A stretch of 64,000 nucleotides of DNA from Variovorax paradoxus (GTDB lineage Bacteria > Pseudomonadota > Gammaproteobacteria > Burkholderiales > Burkholderiaceae_C). Under the pieces are notes generated by a model that saw nothing but the letters and a program-made list of their open reading frames with translations, searched no databases and had not been told where the DNA came from. Below are positions 14,615-26,211 of this stretch, one piece after another; position 1 is the first letter of the stretch; each line of letters opens with the position of its first letter. The translations under genes and the position numbers were made by a program. The stretch spans positions 4,340,001-4,404,000 of the forward strand of contig NZ_JAUSXG010000001.1 of NCBI RefSeq assembly GCF_030815855.1, given 5' to 3'.

Positions 14615-14950
14615 CGGCTTTGTTGAGGAGAGAAAGGAAAAGCGAAATGCGCAGGGTAGCCGGTCGGCGTGCGCCCGATGGCGGGGCGCGCTGTTGCTGG
14701 CGCTATGGAACGCAGAGGATGTTCCGTTTGCAGCGCTTCGTTCACCGCGTCCTTTGAAGCTCAGCAGCGAAAGCGTGCGGCCCCAGCGGCTATGGTGCGC
14801 GCCCTAGCACTTTCGCCTAGTGCGCCATTGAAGTTGCGAATTCCCGGTGTTGCGCATCTGAAGGTTCGCGGATGTACTGCTCACCGGCTGCTTGGGGCCC
14901 AAAGCAGAACTACGAGCTTCTCCATAGGAGACGTTCAAGGCTTCAACACC
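14615..14950. other. Gene-free stretch at the left edge of the accessory island
   Basis: No convincing gene was found in these 336 bases. They hold the upstream region of the AraC gene, a pair of near-repeated CCTAGCAC/CCTAGTGC words around 14807-14822, and near 14880-14908 a poor match to the TTGGCCGA-type element that recurs between island genes. Confidence 0.5.
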
Positions 14951-15580
14951 TTACCGCTGCCGAAGCCAGGCCAGAGCCCTCAAGCGCAGGCTGCCAAACG
15001 AGGTACTCGTTCCAGACCTCCCAACTGGAAGAAGCCAGCCAGATACGAGACCGCAAATCAAACCCGCCCCCGCCGAAAGATTGGCCATCTCGACGATTCG
15101 AACTACACGATTTGGATTGCCTGATAACAGCACAGGGAAGTACGCCGCAGCCGCCCCATACCCGACGACTACCCCGATTGCCGCTCCTGCCACAGCTCCG
15201 AGGGTCATTCTTGGGAACGCGGCAACCAGACAGAGCACCGAAATGCAGTACAGGAGACCAGCGACTACCGCCGGAGCACCACCAACAGCGAACGCGCCAA
15301 CAATCGCAAAAGGGTGGAGAGCAAATGTCAGTGACTCTCTCGAGTCGGACGCTGACGCGGTCATAAGAAGTCCGAGCAAGGGGCCAAGAATGACAAAAAA
15401 ACCAATCGACTGGGCTGCGTGAATGAGCTTTGGCTTACCTGAAAAGATGGGTGTCTTTGGCGGAGTGCGCCGACTAGAAGAATCCGGTCTCCAACTGCTG
15501 CTGGCGCCGAAGTCCGCGCCACATACCTCGCACGACGTGGCATCCAGAGCAACCTGCGCATCACAGTTCGGGCAGTACAT
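14951..15580 (-). CDS. Zinc-ribbon multi-pass membrane protein, unknown function
   Basis: The ~209-residue product begins with a zinc ribbon (MYCPNCDAQV then CEVCGADFG, two CxxC pairs). After a Ser/Arg/Pro linker it has about four hydrophobic segments (e.g. IGFFVILGPLLGLLMTA, AVVAGLLYCISVLCLVAAF, GAVAGAAIGVVVGYGAA). The start at MYCPNC is preferred over an ATG twelve codons upstream because it places the ribbon at the N terminus. I do not recognise the family. Codon use is less GC-rich than in core genes. Confidence 0.7.
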   Translation of the reverse strand: MYCPNCDAQVALDATSCEVCGADFGASSSWRPDSSSRRTPPKTPIFSGKPKLIHAAQSIGFFVILGPLLGLLMTASASDSRESLTFALHPFAIVGAFAVGGAPAVVAGLLYCISVLCLVAAFPRMTLGAVAGAAIGVVVGYGAAAAYFPVLLSGNPNRVVRIVEMANLSAGAGLICGLVSGWLLPVGRSGTSTSFGSLRLRALAWLRQR

Positions 15581-15595
15581 ATGGTTTATCGGGCG

Positions 15596-15622
15596 TGAGT
15601 CCGGTTGTGGCCGCAAGCGGAG
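15596..15622 (+). repeat. Intergenic TGGCCG-core element (copy A)
   Basis: A weak match (GTCCGGTTGTGGCCGCAAGC) lies between the stop of the 120-aa unknown gene and the start of the zinc-ribbon gene. It is included because every neighbouring boundary has a related copy. Confidence 0.4.
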
Positions 15623-15625
15623 GGC

Positions 15626-15988
15626 CTATTTGGGCAACCGTCCGGTGTCCATAAGGAATCCCACGAAATCATCGTGAAGGCCTTCGCCGATCTTGCTCCC
15701 ATGTTCATCAACCACGTAGAGGCGCCCTTTCTCGGCGAGAGCCGTTCCGCCATCCATGGCAACCAGGAACGAATGCCCGAGACCACGAAAGCACTCCGAC
15801 AGGACCTTTGCCAGAGTTTCTCTCGCTACTCCAGCGGCGGCTAGGGCGCGCTGAATCTCGCGATACGGCTTCTCGTCCTCTACCCAGACAAGGTCGGATT
15901 GCGGGTCGGTGAGGGCTTCCGACGCGGTTGTCGACCACACTTCCAATGCCCTTGCCATGTCTTCAAACAGGTCGTCCTTTGTAGCCAT
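15626..15988 (-). CDS. Small acidic protein of unknown function
   Basis: The 120-residue product starts MATKDDLFEDMARALEVW and ends GFLMDTGRLPK, and has no signal peptide or membrane segment. I do not recognise the family; size, acidity and setting are compatible with an immunity or cassette protein. A degraded relative of its first ~25 residues is present at 24855-24931. Its 5' end overlaps the tail of a truncated acetyltransferase gene, and a TTGGCCGA element lies just upstream. An in-frame ATG three codons earlier is also possible. Confidence 0.68.
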   Translation of the reverse strand: MATKDDLFEDMARALEVWSTTASEALTDPQSDLVWVEDEKPYREIQRALAAAGVARETLAKVLSECFRGLGHSFLVAMDGGTALAEKGRLYVVDEHGSKIGEGLHDDFVGFLMDTGRLPK

Positions 15989-16373
15989 AAGATCCATGCG
16001 AATTGATGCCGATGCGAACGTCCGGCGTTGGCCGATTTGTTTCAGGTGATGCGGCGCACCATGTGCCGGCGACGGCATTCGTCGCACCCAATGCGATGGC
16101 CTGCCGCTCCGCCTCGGCCAGCAGGTGGCTGCCCAGGCCCGAGCCGCGCACGTCGGCTTCGACAAACAGTGTTTCGATGTTGAGCCAGTAGAGAAAAACA
16201 AAGCTCCGCACCCCGCCCAGCAATCGGCCATTCCCGTCCCTGGCGTTGAGCCGGATGTACTGCTGCTCGGGATACTCGCCGTCGAAGCCATAGTTGTAGT
16301 GGCGCAGCTTGCGGCCGAGCTCGCCGGAGCGGAGTTCTTCCGGCGTGGCGGCGGTGATGCTGTTGTTTTCCAT
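15963..16373 (-). pseudogene. Truncated GNAT acetyltransferase, partial duplicate
   Basis: The first ~98 residues closely match the intact acetyltransferase at 18962-19390 (e.g. EELRSGELGRKLR, EYPEQQYIRLNARDG, and the acetyl-CoA loop VRGSGLGSHLL). Similarity stops abruptly after LGATNA. The last ~35 residues are unrelated and run across a TTGGCCGA element into the next gene, so the C-terminal strand and helix of the fold are missing. It is therefore probably inactive, although the open frame of 136 codons is intact. Confidence 0.8.
16014..16047 (+). repeat. Intergenic TTGGCCGA element (copy at truncated-GNAT junction)
   Basis: The core reads GTCCGGCGTTGGCCGATTTG. It lies between the point where acetyltransferase homology ends and the start of the 120-aa unknown gene, as expected for a cassette boundary. 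Confidence 0.6.
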
Positions 16374-16400
16374 GTGGGAGAAGGGTAACGGAGCCGCGCC
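16078..16400. repeat. Direct repeat, left copy (GNAT duplication)
   Basis: About 320 bp covering the 5' two thirds of the acetyltransferase gene plus ~25 bp upstream (ending GGTAACGGAGCCGCGCC) is repeated in the same orientation at 19095-19417 with high but imperfect identity. Confidence 0.88.
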
Positions 16401-24825: not shown

Positions 24826-24854
24826 CTTAGACGGAAATTAGTGCGTTAGCCGGG

Positions 24855-24931
24855 TCAATTTTCGGCGGCAATCAACATCCAGTGGTCCGAGGCACCCGCC
24901 AAGTCTTCAAAGAGGTCAATTTTGTCGCCAT
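24855..24931 (-). pseudogene. Frameshifted remnant related to the 120-aa gene at 15626
   Basis: Reading from the ATG at 24931 gives MATK. One missing base then changes the frame, after which DLFEDLAGASDHW is readable and a stop follows at 24855. This parallels MATKDDLFEDMARALEVW of the gene at 15626-15988. A boundary element lies immediately upstream in both cases, suggesting two copies of the same cassette type. Confidence 0.6.
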
Positions 24932-24943
24932 TGGATTCCTTAC

Positions 24944-25023
24944 TGAGCGTCGCCTTCGAGCGGCTTCTTATGGCCGACTGTACCCAGTAGTGGTCAAAGG
25001 CGTGATTTTCTGGCCGACCGGAG
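24944..25023 (+). repeat. Two adjacent TGGCCGA elements upstream of kdsA (copies J, K)
   Basis: The first reads GGCTTCTTATGGCCGACTGT and the second GTGATTTTCTGGCCGACCGG. They lie between the gene remnant at 24855 and the kdsA-like start at 25060. Confidence 0.6.
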
Positions 25024-25059
25024 CGCGAGAATGCGGACAACACCACAGGAGAACTCTTC

Positions 25060-25911
25060 TTGACGACCGTCGCCATCACCCCCGCAATCAACGTCAGCAA
25101 CAGCAATGGCTTTGTGCTGTTTGGCGGCGTGAACGTACTCGAGTCGAAGGACATGGCTCTGCGTGCTGCAGAGGAATACGTCCGAGTTACGCGAAAGCTT
25201 GGCATCCCATACGTCTTCAAGGCAAGTTTCGACAAGGCGAATCGCTCGTCCATCCACTCCTTCCGAGGGCCGGGATTGGAAGAGGGCCTGAAAATCTTCG
25301 AAGCGGTCAAGGCAGAGTTCGGCGTGCCCATCCTCACCGACGTGCACGAGCCATGGCAGGCGAATCCTGTCGCCGAAGTCGTGGACGTTCTACAGCTACC
25401 TGCGTTTCTCGCCCGCCAGACTGACTTGGTCGTCGCGCTTGCCAGGACGGGCAAGGTCATCAACGTCAAGAAGCCTCAGTTCCTGAGCCCGCCGCAGGTG
25501 CTCAATATCGTGGAGAAAATCAGGGAGGCGGGAAGCTCCCCTGTCATTCTGTGCGACCGTGGAACCTGCTTTGGCTACGACAACCTCGTGGTGGACATGC
25601 TTGGATTCGGTGCAATGAAGAAGGTCACCGGGAATCTGCCGGTCATCTTCGACGTTACCCATGCCCTCCAGCAACGCGACGCAAATGCTGCCGTCTCTGG
25701 CGGACGGCGCGAGCAAGTGGCTGAACTGGCACGTGCGGGCTTGGCGGTGGGCTTGGCGGGCCTCTTTCTTGAAGCTCATCCTGACCCGGCGCAGGCTAAA
25801 TGCGATGGTCCCAGCGCTCTGCCACTGGACCAATTGGAGCCTTTCCTCGCGCAGCTGAAGGCGTTGGACGACTTGGTGAAGTCGTTCGCACCAATGCACA
25901 TCCTCGCCTGA
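25060..25911 (+). CDS. kdsA: 3-deoxy-8-phosphooctulonate synthase (KdsA), enterobacterial-type copy
   Basis: KdsA condenses arabinose-5-phosphate with phosphoenolpyruvate to make KDO-8-phosphate for lipopolysaccharide. The 283-residue sequence has [11 protein letters not shown] (Asn marks the metal-independent class), [57 protein letters not shown] and [13 protein letters not shown]. These words are near-identical to E. coli KdsA and differ from the usual Burkholderiales form (ACERG..FGYNNLV, FDATHSVQ). The TTG start has AGGAGA 9 bases upstream. It sits at the island's edge, not next to pyrG/eno, so it is probably an acquired second copy. Confidence 0.92.
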
Positions 25912-26211
25912 ACAAGACGCCGCATCCGACGCAACCGCACGGGCGCTTTGGCCAGCGCCGTTCACGCTCGGCAATCTGCTGACGTGAAAAAGGCACTGGC
26001 CGACCTACGACGCTGTCGGGCCGGTGCTAAAGCCGTCCAGCCGCATGCGCTTGATACGACTGTTTCACGCGCAGGCTACCCCTTGACCAGCCCAAAAAGG
26101 TGGACCTGTGTGGCATTCTGAAAAGAGTCCCTACCCGCTTGGCGCGCACTTCTGCAACGTGGCGCCAGACGACCTCCTTCAACCACCACAACCAGCGATC
26201 AAGGAGTTGCA
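25912..26211. other. Gene-free stretch at the right edge of the island
   Basis: No gene is supported in these 300 bases. Two further weak matches to the boundary element (GCGCTTTGGCCAGCGCCG at ~25940 and CACTGGCCGACC at ~25996) are present. The 3' end carries an AAGGAG site just before the start at 26212. Confidence 0.5.

Follow-up and report, generated by a model that had tools for sequence, protein, structure and literature searches.

What kind of exchange system, if any, assembled the low-GC island of small genes at ~14.74–26.04 kb of a 64,000-nucleotide window of the Variovorax paradoxus genome (G000:C1:4340001-4404000 of a 5.95 Mb single-contig genome)? A reading of the window's sequence alone (the sequence-only reading) had described a degenerate 25–55-nt element at nearly every gene boundary of this island and had likened the arrangement to an integron cassette array or another modular exchange system. 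Integrons are the textbook platform for single-gene capture. Modular exchange is borne out by our analysis; a strict integron, with its integron integrase (IntI) and R-box pairs, is not. From the comparisons below, we consider it highly probable that the island consists of arrayed one-gene cassettes whose boundaries are the recombination cores of a tyrosine recombinase. The system appears to work like an integron and fails the integron tests, and is most likely a variant cassette platform, probably run by its own minimal recombinase.

The element has a ~36-bp core with the consensus CGAAnGTCYGSTTC-TGGCCG-A(A/C)TGTAGCC, in which a left arm and a weaker right arm (AMTGTAGCC) flank a 6-bp center; it spans ~92 bp in a subset with inverted arms, and is thus longer than first proposed. 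Iterated matrices built from 293 sites at 25 loci hold 28.9 bits over 48 columns. The window was scored with a held-out matrix of 324 elements of other genomes (threshold 12 bits; position given as the first G of GGCC), whose rows were chosen using an earlier matrix that included the window, so that the hold-out is not perfectly clean. Twelve distinct sites exceed the threshold, at 14896 (a palindrome, matched on both strands), 15609, 16030, 16797, 17633, 17669, 18022, 18930, 21590, 21626, 22462 and 24972. All lie inside the island and, save for the palindrome, on the + strand; the rest of the window has none, and 20 Markov resamples of the window gave a mean of 0.15 matches and a maximum of 2. 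The single orientation claimed by the sequence-only reading holds, as does its statement that orientation is kept regardless of gene direction, because a DTW-domain gene (21775–22437) and kdsA (25060–25911) read with the element. Eleven of the 17 coordinates at which it had placed copies were recovered above 12 bits, whereas that at 16834 is marginal (11.5), and scores below 10 make those near 16408, 18300, 19424, 25002 and 25940 degenerate at best; the weak site at 19434 is split by an insertion sequence (IS). The bare 8-mer TTGGCCGA proved unspecific: with up to one mismatch it occurs 130 times in the window versus 75 in shuffles, and the matches lie on either strand and extend into core regions. 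A short pattern searched in the whole genome matched 30 times forward and 16 times in reverse; its reversed control matched 16 times each way, so an individual match of this kind says little. Doublets are frequent, with 22 of 28 same-strand core pairs within 130 bp spaced 35–37 bp apart. Right arms like CCGACTGTAGCCGGTCGC also occur without a left arm (L092:8914, L101:6408 and L098:3904); these half-sites may be decayed or unusual junctions.

Where does similarity between arrays begin and end? In BLAST comparisons among 29 array loci, 54 of 148 alignment ends fell within 60 bp of a core, versus 15% of random array positions, and the commonest 5-nt bins of alignment ends were +5 (17 ends) and -5 (12). 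Among 393 elements compared, 54 preselected pairs have a single flank in common, the left alone in 25 and the right alone in 29. The common block stops at +4 to +6, the right edge of TGGCCG, in 20 of the 25 left-flank pairs; it starts at -1/-2, the left edge, in 13 of the 29 right-flank pairs, with one further pair at +16 and 15 starting further left because the conserved arm prolongs the match. Left-arm identity is 0.907 if the left gene is common, 0.554 if the right gene is common and 0.582 in 76,486 unrelated pairs; the corresponding right-arm values are 0.405, 0.929 and 0.437. These alignments show that an arm stays with the gene beside it, that the switch occurs at TGGCCG and that cassettes recur in different neighborhoods. 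The window supplies a whole cassette of this kind: positions 15609–16035 are 88% identical to part of a 1.19 Mb V. paradoxus plasmid (NZ_CP138514.1), the match is bounded by both cores, and no other alignment was found between the rest of the island and the 12 kb around the plasmid match. Window positions 17408–17673, with their 3' limit at core 17669, are 92% identical to a stretch of another genome (G009). Junctions thus fall at a fixed place in the element, the kind of outcome for which the sequence-only reading had suggested looking; the opposite picture, with the element equally common in core regions of the window and no gene exchange with breakpoints at the element, was not what we found.

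We propose that the left and right arms of a core are parts of two adjacent cassettes, with TGGCCG as the presumed crossover region, such that recombination between two cores would swap or remove one gene. Excised cassettes would be circular, insertion would take place at the recombinase-proximal core, cleavage would occur at the edges of the 6 bp, and the enzyme would recognize duplex DNA rather than a folded strand.

Which enzyme could do this? A PF00589 search of 12 genomes revealed longer integrases and also a short tyrosine recombinase, encoded within arrays or next to them; each of the 12 also has two strongly conserved Xer-like genes, which we take to be XerC and XerD. The short protein has ~207 aa, starts close to PWNKGK and is without a core-binding domain. 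Its sequence profile aligns solely to the XerD catalytic domain (residues 131–280 of 1a0p), and a predicted model (predicted local distance difference test score, pLDDT, 82.5) matches XerA, XerH, Cre and the integron integrase 2a3v. The Arg, Lys, His-x-x-Arg, His and Tyr positions, presumably the catalytic ones, are invariant in 32 short-recombinase sequences. NCBIfam models of XerC/XerD and of tyrosine-type DNA invertases match it weakly, and it scores under the cut-off of every family listed. The protein is therefore like Xer-type and FimB/FimE-type short tyrosine recombinases in its catalytic domain and residues, and unlike them in falling under these cut-offs and in occurring with cassette arrays.

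A protein search of the genus gave matches in 49 of 101 genomes, fragments counted, from which 30 loci were kept, one per genome (L120–L149). In 19 of these 30 a core lies within 250 bp of the recombinase. One layout, at nine loci (one weak), has the core 53–58 bp past the stop codon, with the gene placed like a cassette gene. Another, at four loci plus a second G004 copy (L085/L100), has the core 149–151 bp before the start codon and the cassettes divergent; in all ten pairs of these five units the common DNA begins at -152 to -173, that is, from the core on. Outside Variovorax, we compared 72 recombinase loci, which come from the top 80 among 566 confirmed ones: a ‘+’ core lies at most 250 bp upstream in 20 of 72 (a ‘-’ core in 3), and downstream 28 of 70 have a ‘-’ core (2 have a ‘+’ core), versus none in shuffled flanks. 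The offset +47 recurs nine times, in Pseudomonas, Stutzerimonas and Vreelandella. These placements, in which the distance between gene and core recurs, support the ~207-aa protein as the candidate enzyme; its role is the least certain part of our reading. The family is very large, with at least 8000 candidates at E up to 1e-20; 353 plasmid records carry a relative (E up to 1e-40), and 154 of these records are predicted to be conjugative. Among the matches listed, Enterobacterales plasmid relatives are ~60–66% identical and are mostly annotated as site-specific integrase or tyrosine-type recombinase/integrase.

In the genome that carries the island we found only fragments of the recombinase, one of them around G000:C1:4637182-4637393 with its end 53 bp from an element. 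For this reason, the island is probably an immobile, CALIN-like relic (CALINs being clusters of attC sites lacking integron-integrases) or is served in trans. The earlier remark that no integrase is adjacent is accordingly true of the island and not of related arrays, which carry the short recombinase.

More broadly, the search of other genomes that the sequence-only reading had recommended shows that the element is widespread in the genus. A sequence-only model of the element has matches in 100 of 101 genus genomes, our own included (E up to 0.05), with a maximum of 53 per genome. In a family sample, 79 of 200 genomes and 66 of 141 genera have matches (E up to 0.02), mostly one or two each; ~4 genomes would be expected by chance were the rough E-values exact. 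Orientation within an array is uniform and often flips, with ‘-’ elements on the left and ‘+’ elements on the right: 30 loci, a few of which overlap within one genome, include 21 ‘-|+’ versus 5 ‘+|-’ flips. Many flips carry a palindrome like GCGAACTTCGGCTTTGGGCCCTAAGCCGAAGTTCGC, and the palindrome at window position 14896 is such a site, at the end of an array with one side only. In 191 intervals between neighboring elements at 24 loci, the longest open reading frame (ORF) runs opposite to the element in 134, with it in 53 and is absent in 4; genes are thus mostly read towards the palindrome. Element scores increase away from the flip (16 arrays: mean rho 0.21, with 3 negative values; permutation p 0.0025; two of the arrays, L085 and L101, overlap in one genome), a trend that fits, weakly, with the palindrome ends of arrays being older. 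Insertion of cassettes at the central palindrome was considered as a model and abandoned once the arm types had been examined and the recombinase had turned up next to ordinary cores. The same genome has more element clusters at G000:C1 ~4216–4220 kb (L031), 4606–4612 kb (L032) and 677–680 kb (L034), each with ‘-’ elements on the left and ‘+’ elements on the right, the ‘+’ one of L032 being weak.

Could these arrays be divergent true integrons or CALINs, with folded single-stranded attC sites and an IntI that has since gone? A short-gene array with its site mostly on the 3' side would suit such an origin, as would the layout of an integrase divergent from its array with attI at the 5' end, which is seen only in relatives, in their upstream-core units; single-gene exchange at a fixed point of the site is an integron trait present here as well. 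An inverted left arm, moreover, lies downstream in 90 of 302 elements, whereas shuffled tails give 21; its position peaks at +40/41 (19) and +62 to +64 (28). Yet the arms are conserved in sequence without covarying: no covariation was detected in an alignment of 39 sites picked for their second arm, where 112 of 500 shuffles reach the observed score, and no consensus hairpin beyond 3 pairs was found in the inverted-arm sites. We tried a folded, attC-like hairpin as a description of the element and found it not supported on these grounds, though the inverted arms sit at preferred offsets; each arm instead looks like a putative sequence-recognized binding site on duplex DNA. The genome has six matches to IntI (TIGR02249), none over the cut-off, and the associated short recombinase reaches 18.9 bits at most versus that cut-off of 265. 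A strict exact-complement script, rather than IntegronFinder, found no RYYYAAC/GTTRRRY R-box pair at 14.7–26.1 kb (100 shuffles: mean 0.1, maximum 2), in agreement with the earlier observation that canonical attC cores are not evident. Taken together, we regard an origin as a divergent integron as very unlikely. It is highly improbable, too, that the element is a dispersed intergenic repeat of the repetitive extragenic palindrome (REP) or miniature inverted-repeat transposable element (MITE) kind, or a terminator, with exchange by ordinary homologous recombination. Its short length, intergenic position, palindromic relatives at array centers and spread across the genus are what this explanation has to offer, but an arm that travels with its own gene and switches within 6 bp would be hard to obtain by homologous recombination of short degenerate repeats, and the uniform orientation, the predominance of one flip direction and the recurring distance from a recombinase gene speak against it.

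Exchange could also be site-specific and depend on another recombinase, such as Xer acting in trans, with the short recombinase as cargo. We think this unlikely: oriented cores stand on both sides of the recombinase gene in unrelated taxa, the +47 offset recurs at nine loci, and the upstream-core layout is unlike a cassette. It draws on the strongly conserved pair of Xer-like genes that every one of the 12 searched genomes has, on the layout that places the short recombinase like a cassette gene and on the missing correlation with element number, which belongs to a set of observations that count against our own reading. Median element number is 13.5 in 30 genomes with a near full-length recombinase versus 13.0 in 32 without (p 0.92; 62 of 101 genomes, the other 39 having broken copies or not being listed as without a match), and two element-rich genomes are without an intact recombinase (G070, with 53 matches and one fragment, and G080, with 38 and none found). 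Recombinase presence is thus unrelated to element number, from which it would follow that arrays outlive their enzyme, as CALINs do, or that another enzyme serves them. Eleven of the 30 genus recombinase loci have no core within 250 bp, two of them having it at 931 bp, and the right border of the upstream-core unit (~+750) is not a recognized core. With the Variovorax-trained matrix, 52 of 72 non-Variovorax loci are without an upstream ‘+’ core and 42 of 70 without a downstream ‘-’ core. In 53 of 191 intervals the longest ORF runs with the element. Finally, the 54 pairs with a single common flank were preselected in a way that confines the switch to -20 to +25, and they lack independence, some elements being reused and some pairs lying within one locus, so that only the sharpness of the switch and the arm identities count.

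Our preferred reading, of cassettes exchanged by a minimal recombinase, would extend beyond this island. We think it fairly likely that this is a second, independent kind of integron across Proteobacteria, on chromosomes and plasmids, in which a catalytic-domain-only recombinase would move single-gene cassettes between duplex TGGCCG cores, in arrays that may be two-sided and converge on a palindrome, and which would have been missed because its enzyme is annotated generically as ‘site-specific integrase’ and its cores are without attC features. Like integrons and CALINs, it has small accessory genes, one site per gene and single-gene exchange at a fixed point; in one of its layouts the array diverges from a tyrosine recombinase gene that has a site directly upstream of it, and its arrays, like CALINs, persist without the enzyme. 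Unlike integrons, it has no IntI over the cut-off, no R-box pairs and no structural covariation, and has instead a sequence-conserved core with a 6-bp TGGCCG switch, an enzyme without a core-binding domain and arrays that often converge on a palindrome.

Cargo was sampled as 140 cassette ORFs from 11 arrays, of which 114 were scanned. Forty-four Pfam families match at least one of these 114 proteins, with SUKH (SMI1_KNR4) found 4 times, GNAT (Acetyltransf_1) 3 times, Imm33, Imm35 and barstar once each, and HxlR as well; to these come Imm70, two GNATs, DTW and an extra kdsA from the window. The acetyltransferase, Imm70 and extra kdsA named in the sequence-only reading were accordingly recovered, whereas the ORF that it called kinase-like has no Pfam match. 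With their tyrosine recombinase, their immunity-like cargo and the conserved motifs between their genes, the arrays bring to mind the recombinase-associated acquired interbacterial defense (rAID) systems of Bacteroidales, as far as the accessible part of their description goes (PMC12247911). The cargo here includes SUKH, Imm33, Imm35, Imm70 and barstar, and the apparent likeness is one of description; unlike rAID systems, the arrays here occur in high-GC Proteobacteria and have broader cargo, and their breakpoints are mapped, whereas no such mapping was met in the accessible part of the rAID description (PMC12247911). The literature searched, in part as partial text and including PMC8138268, PMC9024848, PMC8946536 and PMC12247911, contained no description of a TGGCCG-core system; subscription papers and preprints lay mostly outside its coverage. 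If our reading is true, a major route by which genes are exchanged would have been overlooked: a second platform that uses different sites and has a simpler enzyme. It would offer many unannotated cassettes, some of them immunity-like, and a minimal recombinase whose sites the breakpoints reveal. Two ~36-bp cores and the ~207-aa protein are predicted to suffice.

How did the island come to its present place? It lies between an AraC-type regulator gene and an esterase-like gene, and its GC content, 0.603 versus 0.668 and 0.671 outside, agrees with its earlier description as low in GC. Of 60 relatives, 4 gave a match to the AraC-type flank gene (E up to 1e-80); the island is missing from all four, and no element was found at their empty sites, from which it would follow that the island arrived or left as one block. 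Insertion of the island at a pre-existing core in relatives was rejected on the same finding. One relative, G004, carries a different ~5 kb insert at the island's position. Three Rfam matches were obtained for the island region (E up to 1), each scoring far under its gathering threshold, and PADLOC found no match among 7 proteins. The features of the island are as follows.

14878–14915, both strands: palindromic element with GGGCCC center, left end of the island (13.0 and 16.6 bits, held-out matrix)
14951–15616, - strand: cassette gene for a zinc-ribbon protein, start uncertain (Zn_Ribbon_1 24.1 bits, just below the curated cut-off of 25)
15594–15628, + strand: element, core GGCC at 15609 (12.5 bits); boundary common with the V. 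paradoxus plasmid
15609–16035, no strand: whole cassette present elsewhere (88% identity to NZ_CP138514.1, L239:6001-6428, ending at both cores)
16015–16049, + strand: element, core 16030 (19.6 bits)
16042–16373, - strand: truncated GNAT acetyltransferase cassette gene, partial copy of 18962–19390 (Pfam; 92% DNA repeat over 300 nt)
16434–16679, - strand: cassette gene, 81 aa, unknown (translation; longer ORF without Pfam match)
16782–16816, + strand: element, core 16797, with weak second copy at 16834 (28.8 and 11.5 bits)
16884–17594, - strand: cassette gene, 236 aa, unknown (ORF; no Pfam match)
17618–17688, + strand: double element, cores 17633 and 17669, 36 bp apart (24.2 and 18.7 bits); such doublets recur
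17692–17922, - strand: cassette gene, 76 aa, unknown (ORF; no Pfam match)
18007–18041, + strand: element, core 18022 (26.5 bits)
18034–18282, - strand: cassette gene for a small hydrophobic protein (reading of the translation)
18272–18871, - strand: cassette ORF called kinase-like in the sequence-only reading (0 Pfam families)
18915–18949, + strand: element, core 18930 (14.7 bits)
18962–19390, - strand: GNAT acetyltransferase cassette gene (Pfam on ORF 18962–19519)
19438–21119, - strand: IS1182-type insertion within the GGCC core of an element (DUF772/DDE_Tnp_1; family name from annotated relatives; GGCC at 19434–19437 and 21120–21123)
21136–21546, - strand: Imm70 immunity protein cassette gene (PF15601, E 4.5e-39)
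21575–21705, + strand: double element, cores 21590 and 21626, inverted arm at +66 (19.6 and 32.0 bits; in the inverted-arm alignment)
21775–22437, + strand: DTW-domain gene in the direction of the element (PF03942, E 9.1e-45)
22447–22481, + strand: element, core 22462 (27.9 bits)
22469–22822, - strand: unknown gene, apparently interrupted by an IS3 copy (open frame; IS3 end at 22823)
22823–24430, + strand: IS3-family insertion (rve, HTH_Tnp_1; terminal inverted repeats; annotated plasmid relatives)
24957–24991, + strand: element, core 24972 (23.7 bits)
25060–25911, + strand: extra kdsA-like gene (DAHP_synth_1; the genome's other match is 50% identical)

Further observations concern repeats and insertions in the island. 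The IS1182-type element at 19438–21119 has GGCC at both ends, exactly in the core of a cassette site, which suggests that elements of this type may target such palindromic cores. The GNAT copies at 16074–16373 and 19091–19390 share 92% DNA identity over 300 nt, and the first is without its C-terminal part; it seems, from this repeat, that a cassette was duplicated and truncated. IS remnants occupy 24358–24838, between the IS3 copy and element 24972, and comprise an inverted repeat (24434–24456/24816–24838) and a helix-turn-helix fragment (24358–24771).

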